Assembly (NCBI GenBank): GCA_030625885.1
Contig: DAOUPZ010000023.1
Location: 1-59,837, forward strand
From: Clostridia bacterium
GTDB lineage: Bacteria > Bacillota > DAOUPZ01
Direction: 5' to 3'
Length of the DNA stretch: 59,837 bases
Below, one piece after another: positions 4,481 through 16,037 of this stretch. The notes beneath the pieces are model-generated. The model searched no databases. It had not been told where the DNA came from and worked only from the letters and a program-made list of their open reading frames with translations. The position numbers and the translations under genes were made by a program. Position 1 is the stretch's first letter, and every line of letters begins with the position of its first letter.

Positions 4481-4627
4481 AAAAATAAGCAAACCGTGTT
4501 TGGTTTGCTTGTATAAAAATGATCTCCTTTCCAAACACGGGAGGCCATGCCGTTTCCAGCACCACCTATCGCTTTACCGTCATAGGATTTCCCTTTAGAA
4601 CAGTAAAGTCGGAGAAATAGCTATTCT
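4481..4627 (-). promoter_or_regulatory. Structured leader with mutually exclusive terminator and antiterminator (candidate riboswitch)
   Basis: On the minus strand, a hairpin with a GAAA tetraloop (TGCTG/CGGCA, 4547-4560) and a CCTAT/ATAGG stem are followed by CCGTGTTTGG (4531-4540). That decamer is exactly complementary to CCAAACACGG at 4494-4503, which is part of an intrinsic terminator (arms AAGCAAACC/GGTTTGCTT, 4487-4510, then a U-run). Pairing of the decamers would disrupt the terminator. A CUUUACUG segment near 4612 can also pair with CGGUAAAG in the apical loop near 4577. The class is not identified: motifs only loosely recall c-di-GMP-I or Moco RNAs. The target is the repeat surface protein, whose start is about 120 nt downstream of the terminator. 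Confidence 0.6.
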
Positions 4628-14599: not shown

Positions 14600-14622
14600 A
14601 AAAAAACCCCGAAGGGTTTTTT
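14600..14622 (-). terminator. Intrinsic terminator of trpB
   Basis: AAACCC-TTC-GGGGTTT is followed by a U-run directly after the trpB stop. Confidence 0.8.
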
Positions 14623-15800
14623 TATATCTCCATTAATCCTGCTACCTGCTGTACATCTTTATCACCACGACCAGATACATTAATAACCACTATTTCATCC
14701 TGTTTTAACTCGGCAGCCAATTTCATCCCATATGCAACAGCATGTGCACTCTCTAATGCCGGAATAATACCTTCTATGCGGCTTAAAGCTGCAAAAGCGT
14801 CCAATGCCTCTTGATCCGTTATAGACACATATTGTGCCCGCCCACTGGCCTTTAAATAGCTATGTTCAGGTCCCACACCTGGATAATCCAATCCAGCAGC
14901 CACAGAATGTGTTGCCCTGGGCTCTCCCTGTTCGTTCGCAAGTAAATAACACTTAAACCCATGTATCGTTCCCACTTCACCTTTGCACAAAGGAGCCGCA
15001 TGCTGTCTTGTTTCAATTCCATGCCCTGCTGGCTCTACCCCAATTAATTCTACATCATCTTCTAAAAATGCTGTAAAGAACCCCATGGCGTTACTGCCGC
15101 CTCCAACACAAGCAACCAAAGCATCCGGTAATTTCCCTTCTAACGTTAGGATATCCTCTTTTACTTCTTCCCCAATAATCGCCTGAAAATCCCGAACAAT
15201 CATAGGATAAGGGTGCGGACCTACAACAGAACCTAACATATAGTATGTGTCCGAAGCATTTTTTACTAAATCTTCTAAAGCCACATCAACAGCATCTTTT
15301 AAAGTAGCCGTCCCACGGGTAACGGGCACCACTTCCGCACCTAACAGTTTCATACGGAAAACATTTAATGATTGGCGTCTTGTATCTTCTTCTCCCATAT
15401 ACACAATACATTGCAAACCAAATAATGCACAAGCAGTTGCTGTTGCCACACCATGTTGCCCCGCACCTGTTTCCGCAATAATACGCTTTTTACCCATCTT
15501 CTTTGCAAGCAGAACCTGCCCGATGGTATTGTTAATCTTGTGAGAACCCGTATGATTCAAATCTTCCCGTTTCAGGTAAATTTTTCCGCCACCCATCTCT
15601 TCTGTCAAACGTTTAGCAAAGTAAAGGGGTGAAGGTCGTCCTACATAATATTTTTGCAAATCATACAATTCCTGACGAAATGAATCGTCCTCTTTCAACT
15701 TCAAATACTGCGTTTCTAATTCTTTTAAAATGGGTTGAAGTACCTCTGGTACATACGCCCCTCCAAATTGACCAAAAAATCCATTTTCATTCGGTAACAT
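14622..15800 (-). CDS. trpB: Tryptophan synthase beta chain
   Basis: This 392-residue PLP enzyme joins indole and L-serine to make tryptophan. '[15 protein letters not shown]' contains the PLP-lysine and its substrate-binding surroundings; '[15 protein letters not shown]', the phosphate cradle 'GGGSNAMG', and '[12 protein letters not shown]' are all present, and the length is that of the TrpB1 class which pairs with TrpA. It is an orphan here: neighbours are unrelated small genes and dapB, with no trpA or other trp genes within the window. The start has AGGAGG 8 nt upstream. Its leader holds a terminator and TRAP-like triplets, which indicates attenuation by tryptophan. Confidence 0.97.
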
Positions 15801-15830
15801 ATCAATACCTCCTTTTTATTTTTGAAAATA

Positions 15831-15972
15831 AAAAAAACCTTCGACGAAAAAAGGTTGAAAAAGGCATAGGTATTAATATACAGTACCTACATCACATGTT
15901 TTTTTCTCAACTCTTCTATACTCGTCTCAACTTAATCATCTATTTCTCTCAGCTCAACTTAATCGTATTCTA
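15831..15972 (-). promoter_or_regulatory. TRAP-like attenuator leader of trpB
   Basis: Read on the minus strand, GAG/UAG triplets occur at 15955, 15950, 15942, 15928, 15923, 15918, 15913 and 15908 (first base). The last five are separated by exactly two nucleotides each, and AAG triplets precede two of the runs at the same spacing. The final triplets overlap GUUGAGAAAAA, which can pair with UUUUUCAAC at the 5' edge of an intrinsic terminator (AACCTT/AAGGTT plus U-run, 15831-15858). This is the arrangement of a TRAP (MtrB) attenuator: protein bound to the triplets frees the terminator. No mtrB gene is visible here. Confidence 0.65.
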
Positions 15973-16037
15973 TCATAAATCATAAAAATATGCAATAATA
16001 AGTCATACAACTATTTTTAGTATATAAAATAACAAAA

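Follow-up and report, generated by a model that had tools for sequence, protein, structure and literature searches.

Most of what is known about TRAP, a textbook regulator, comes from Bacillus and from its control of the trp operon. The TRAP targets of Bacillus subtilis are the trp operon, trpG, trpP and ycbK; a stand-alone trpB is not on that list (PMC11255114). The trp attenuator of B. subtilis reportedly works poorly as an intrinsic terminator (PMC3913778). In other Firmicutes, the same kinds of genes are under tryptophan-responsive control by T-box leaders, found at trp genes and at trpXYZ, the latter in Streptococcus suis (PMC9382623).

We analyzed a stretch of DNA of 59,837 nt (referred to here as the window) from a Clostridia bacterium (GCA_030625885.1, contig DAOUPZ010000023.1, positions 1-59,837). 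An earlier note had proposed that a single trpB in the window is preceded by a leader with the TRAP attenuation logic of Bacillus. The presence of mtrB in the genome, the folding of the leader with its array blocked, and the arrays found in relatives all support that proposal, and we conclude that the leader very probably attenuates transcription of a stand-alone trpB under the control of TRAP.

The predicted attenuator resembles that of B. subtilis trpEDCFBA in having GAG/UAG triplets spaced 2 nt apart near the start of the leader, an antiterminator that overlaps the array, a weak terminator that competes with it, and mtrB in the same genome. It differs from that leader in several respects. 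The target is one stand-alone gene and not an operon, there are eight GAG/UAG and two AAG triplets with two wide gaps in place of 11 triplets, there is no space for a 5' stem-loop ahead of the array, and the 5' strand of the antiterminator is made of five triplets. The locus is also like trpG, trpP and ycbK, which are single genes away from the trp operon and include the TrpP transporter. In those genes, however, TRAP controls translation from a site over the ribosome-binding site, whereas the window leader has the form of an attenuator. Tryptophan T-boxes differ in another way: they sense uncharged tRNA-Trp and not, as proposed here, free tryptophan through a protein.

Results

The leader contains a TRAP-like array of triplets

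All of the leader features are on the minus strand (Table 1). Read from 15995 to 15800, the sequence contains a promoter-like site, the array, an A tract, a small hairpin, a terminator with eight U, AAGGAGG, and the ATG of trpB. Based on the promoter consensus, the predicted start of transcription is at the edge of the first array triplet.

Table 1. Features of the trpB leader and gene, in window coordinates.
Feature	Position	Strand	Basis
sigma-A-like promoter; -35 TTGCAT (15995-15990), 17-nt spacer, -10 TAGAAT (15972-15967)	15967..15995	-	consensus match only
candidate TRAP-binding array, 55 nt; AAG-2-GAG-2-GAG-5-UAG-6-AAG-2-GAG-2-GAG-2-UAG-2-GAG-2-GAG; spacers in order tt, ct, agaaa, atgatt, tt, ac, ta, aa, tt	15906..15960	-	sequence reading, shuffles
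first four triplets of array; AAG 15960-15958, GAG 15955-15953, GAG 15950-15948, UAG 15942-15940		-
last six triplets of array; AAG 15933-15931, GAG 15928-15926, GAG 15923-15921, UAG 15918-15916, GAG 15913-15911, GAG 15908-15906		-
antiterminator 5' strand GACGAGuauAGAAGaGUUGAGAAA, from the last five triplets	15903..15926	-	predicted fold
small hairpin GUAGGUA/UACCUAU within the antiterminator loop	15866..15890	-	predicted fold
antiterminator 3' strand UUUUUCAACCUUUUUUCGUC, overlapping the terminator 5' arm	15843..15862	-	predicted fold
intrinsic terminator AACCUU...AAGGUU; helix 15856-15836, then eight U	15830..15856	-	sequence and predicted fold
ribosome-binding site AAGGAGG, 7 nt 5' of ATG	15808..15814	-	sequence reading
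stand-alone trpB, TrpB1 type, 392 aa, no adjacent trpA	14622..15800	-	TIGR00263

The array was as the earlier note had described it, with eight GAG/UAG triplets, five of them in a row at 2-nt spacing, and AAG before that run at the same spacing. There are thus multiple GAG/UAG triplets at the 2-3 nt spacing of the B. subtilis site, though short of the 11 found there; AAG takes the place of GAG/UAG in two of the ten, and the gaps of 5 and 6 nt are both wider than that spacing. The 55 nt of the array amount to approximately 11 steps of 5 nt. Therefore, with weak triplets filling the two wide gaps, the array could circle the 11-subunit ring once.

The array is beyond chance. The longest run of GAG/UAG triplets at 2-nt spacing was five on the real minus strand, compared to never more than four in 200 dinucleotide-shuffled strands of the window, and every other such run in the window had at most two triplets. 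We considered the possibility that a GAG-rich stretch happens to lie before an ordinary terminator and that TRAP is not involved. By our own estimate, approximately six four-triplet runs are expected per genome, and several single runs of four do fall within genes. However, the run here is longer than any in the shuffles and lies directly before a tryptophan gene, mtrB is present in the genome, and arrays follow mtrB across genomes (see below), making a chance origin very improbable.

Blocking the array releases the terminator in predicted folds

In the free leader, RNA folding predicted a 20-bp duplex between the two antiterminator strands (15926-15903 with 15862-15843) that occupies the 5' arm of the terminator, with a pairing probability of 0.8-1.0 for the 5' strand. 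The earlier note had claimed that the last triplets can pair with the 5' side of the terminator; the predicted pairing is longer than it had claimed. The probability of the terminator helix was 0 in the free leader and ~0.65 with the array blocked. Blocking the last five triplets alone gave ~0.3; in that predicted fold, the earlier triplets pair with the U run. That is, the antiterminator overlaps the array and, in silico, is mutually exclusive with the terminator.

The intrinsic terminator noted near the array is present but weak by itself (-4.3 kcal/mol), and its helix goes no higher than ~0.65 even when the array is blocked. The antiterminator duplex had a predicted energy of -18.1 kcal/mol. 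Pairing this strong arose in 15 of 2000 shuffles of the array, and in 37 of 2000 arrays in which the triplets were kept and the spacers randomized. Based on these numbers, the pairing is partly, though not wholly, compositional: the terminator arm is pyrimidine-rich and pairs in part by composition with any GAG-rich array.

The genome encodes MtrB and has other arrays

The proposal had been made to depend on mtrB, and the genome has one such gene (PF02081, E 2.3e-37; NCBIfam MtrB equivalog, 132.9 bits, cut-off 117). Its product is close to solved TRAP chains (1c9s, E 5.7e-28) and contains the segments LDKGE and MKIRGK, which carry the Lys/Lys/Arg residues that bind RNA in B. subtilis TRAP.

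We also scanned the genome for further arrays, defined as four KAG triplets at 2-nt spacing. Arrays precede an operon of a TrpP-family S component (PF17099) followed by ECF ATPases and a T component. This operon has two, one in the leader before a strong terminator and one over the ribosome-binding site. Another array precedes an ABC transporter whose binding protein is TrpX-like (NF041285, 276.7 bits, below the cut-off of 390). From these positions, TRAP appears to control the TrpP-type ECF transporter and the TrpX-like ABC transporter as well.

Runs of four triplets on contigs C19 and C27 were within genes and were taken as chance. Two other occurrences may also be chance. A birA-like gene that immediately follows nadC has several GAG/UAG triplets over its ribosome-binding site and start (G000:C36:32535; L015 ~1501), and a four-triplet array ends ~10 nt before an uncharacterized methyltransferase-like ORF (G000:C12:146668; L002 ~1501).

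The trp operon of the same genome has a T-box

The earlier note had placed the single trpB apart from any trp operon, and the genome does have a second trpB, within a complete trp operon on another contig (C28: trpE, G, D, C, F, a DAHP-synthase gene, B, A). We recognized no array before this operon and rejected TRAP control of it; a T-box is found there instead (RF00230, 99.5 bits). By comparison with other Trp T-boxes, we read its specifier as UGG. This leader (L019:12630-13014, G000:C28, minus strand) has one T-box specifier domain and two successive T-box/antiterminator-terminator modules, which contain GGGTGGCACAGCGAA... and GAGTGGTACCGCGAA...; a U run comes after each module.

Could a T-box or riboswitch control the stand-alone trpB as well? 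The T-box of the trp operon would be a precedent within the genome, and in clostridia that lack mtrB a T-box precedes orphan trpB (see below). However, an Rfam scan of the window gave no family match on the trpB leader and no match to RF00230 anywhere in the window, and a T-box would not fit in so short a leader. Because there was no Rfam match, we dropped both readings; control by another leader regulator of this kind is the least probable of the alternatives that we considered. Elsewhere in the window, a molybdenum/tungsten cofactor riboswitch (RF01055, 68.6 bits) lies at 4508-4626 on the minus strand.

The stand-alone TrpB is of the TrpB1 type

The product of the stand-alone trpB scored 605.8 bits against TIGR00263 (cut-off 392.45), the level of a TrpB1 equivalog, and 187 bits against the TrpB2-like model TIGR01415, under the cut-off of 519. 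It is 62% identical to the operon TrpB of the same genome. With no trpA beside its gene, the enzyme would most likely join indole, taken up or leaked, to serine in a salvage route. Tryptophanase was not established as a source of indole, as the matches to PF01212 were weak and resembled other PLP enzymes.

Arrays before orphan trpB follow mtrB in relatives

We compared 149 genomes of the same phylum, 84 of them with mtrB. Because these relatives share only the phylum with the genome studied here, the trpB leader itself could not be aligned. A five-triplet array (KAGNN x5) was found in 68 of the 84 genomes with mtrB and in 10 of the 65 without it (p 5e-16).

We collected about 120 trpB genes from the relatives and called an array upstream of trpB when there was a chain of at least three triplets at 2-3 nt spacing, a threshold chosen by eye before counting, yet after some cases had been seen. 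Arrays preceded 13 of 17 orphan trpB genes in genomes with mtrB and none of eight in genomes without it (p 0.0005). Two of the four orphans lacking an array in mtrB-containing genomes were truncated hits. Among trpB genes internal to operons, 9 of 89 had an array. Triplet arrays therefore recur before orphan trpB and track the presence of mtrB, and by these counts TRAP control of trpB would be kept in relatives. Named examples with an array, all three with mtrB, are a Bacillota MAG (L025), a Clostridium MAG (L028) and Aneurinibacillus tyrosinisolvens (L048). Five clostridial relatives (L026, L027, L030, L034, L043) have a T-box just upstream of orphan trpB, and mtrB is absent from all five. 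With TRAP arrays where mtrB is present and a T-box where it is absent, orphan trpB seems to offer a clear example of one regulator replacing another.

In a protein tree, all of the TRAP-marked orphan TrpB sequences were in one stand-alone clade without any operon TrpB (support 0.995, and 0.90 with more sequences). Seven genomes with a TRAP-marked orphan trpB lack trpA, which fits indole salvage.

The position of the array varied. In most relatives it covers the ribosome-binding site or the start codon, at about -45 to +18 relative to where TrpB homology begins. The window array is 106-129 nt upstream of that point and leaves the ribosome-binding site uncovered; an array further upstream was also found in one family (G007, G126, G053, G092). 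The Bacillus-like attenuation proposed earlier thus fits the window leader and needs refinement beyond it: translational repression seems to be the commoner arrangement and attenuation the form here. It is conceivable that TRAP binds the window leader and acts chiefly on translation of trpB, as it would in most relatives, with the terminator, which is indeed weak, of little weight. The distance of the array from the gene, the free ribosome-binding site and the complementarity of the array to the terminator arm make this unlikely, and we favor attenuation.

Some relatives had other arrangements. In L160, L168 (G061, G134) and L048 (A. tyrosinisolvens), the array extends into the trpB coding sequence. 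TrpB there has an N-terminal extension in GAG-rich codons, for example MSKVEQSRVELS, and the RNA-binding site appears to be partly coding. In L153-L155 (G007, G126, G053), the beginning of the array upstream of trpB, which reads GAGUCAAG or a close variant, can pair with a segment of the CUUUGACUC type. That segment also folds into a hairpin at the Shine-Dalgarno sequence, which suggests that termination is combined there with sequestration of the ribosome-binding site. One relative (G020) has two mtrB genes, on C7 and C29.

Discussion

We infer that MtrB binds the trpB leader and that termination occurs there in the cell. At high tryptophan, the MtrB ring, loaded with Trp, would bind the array, which lies at the 5' end of the nascent RNA. 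This would deprive the 20-bp antiterminator of one of its strands; the terminator would then form and trpB would remain untranscribed. When tryptophan is scarce, TRAP would release the RNA, the antiterminator would form across the 5' arm of the terminator, and trpB would be made. The trp operon of the same genome would read charged tRNA-Trp through its T-box, apart from TRAP.

The stand-alone trpB and the TrpX-like transporter, both predicted from sequence as TRAP targets, are outside the list for B. subtilis, and the apparent division of labor with a T-box is unusual. In a literature search that did not cover the main comparative surveys, we found no paper that describes TRAP acting on an orphan trpB or on a TrpX-like transporter.

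Because the genome has mtrB and related bacteria appear to put a lone trpB of the same kind under TRAP, TRAP here seems to run tryptophan/indole salvage and not the main pathway. We lean toward a broader view, with some reservation, in which the stand-alone TrpB clade is a core TRAP target across the phylum. In the lineage studied here, TRAP would have ceded the trp operon to the T-box and would run only a salvage regulon of the lone trpB, the TrpP-ECF transporter and the TrpX-like ABC transporter. Free tryptophan, for uptake and salvage, and charged tRNA-Trp, for synthesis, would then be read separately. The association of TRAP with stand-alone trpB in many related genomes, several of them without trpA, points to indole salvage as a regulated route. 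A T-box for synthesis and TRAP for salvage may provide a natural setting for asking why cells use two tryptophan signals.
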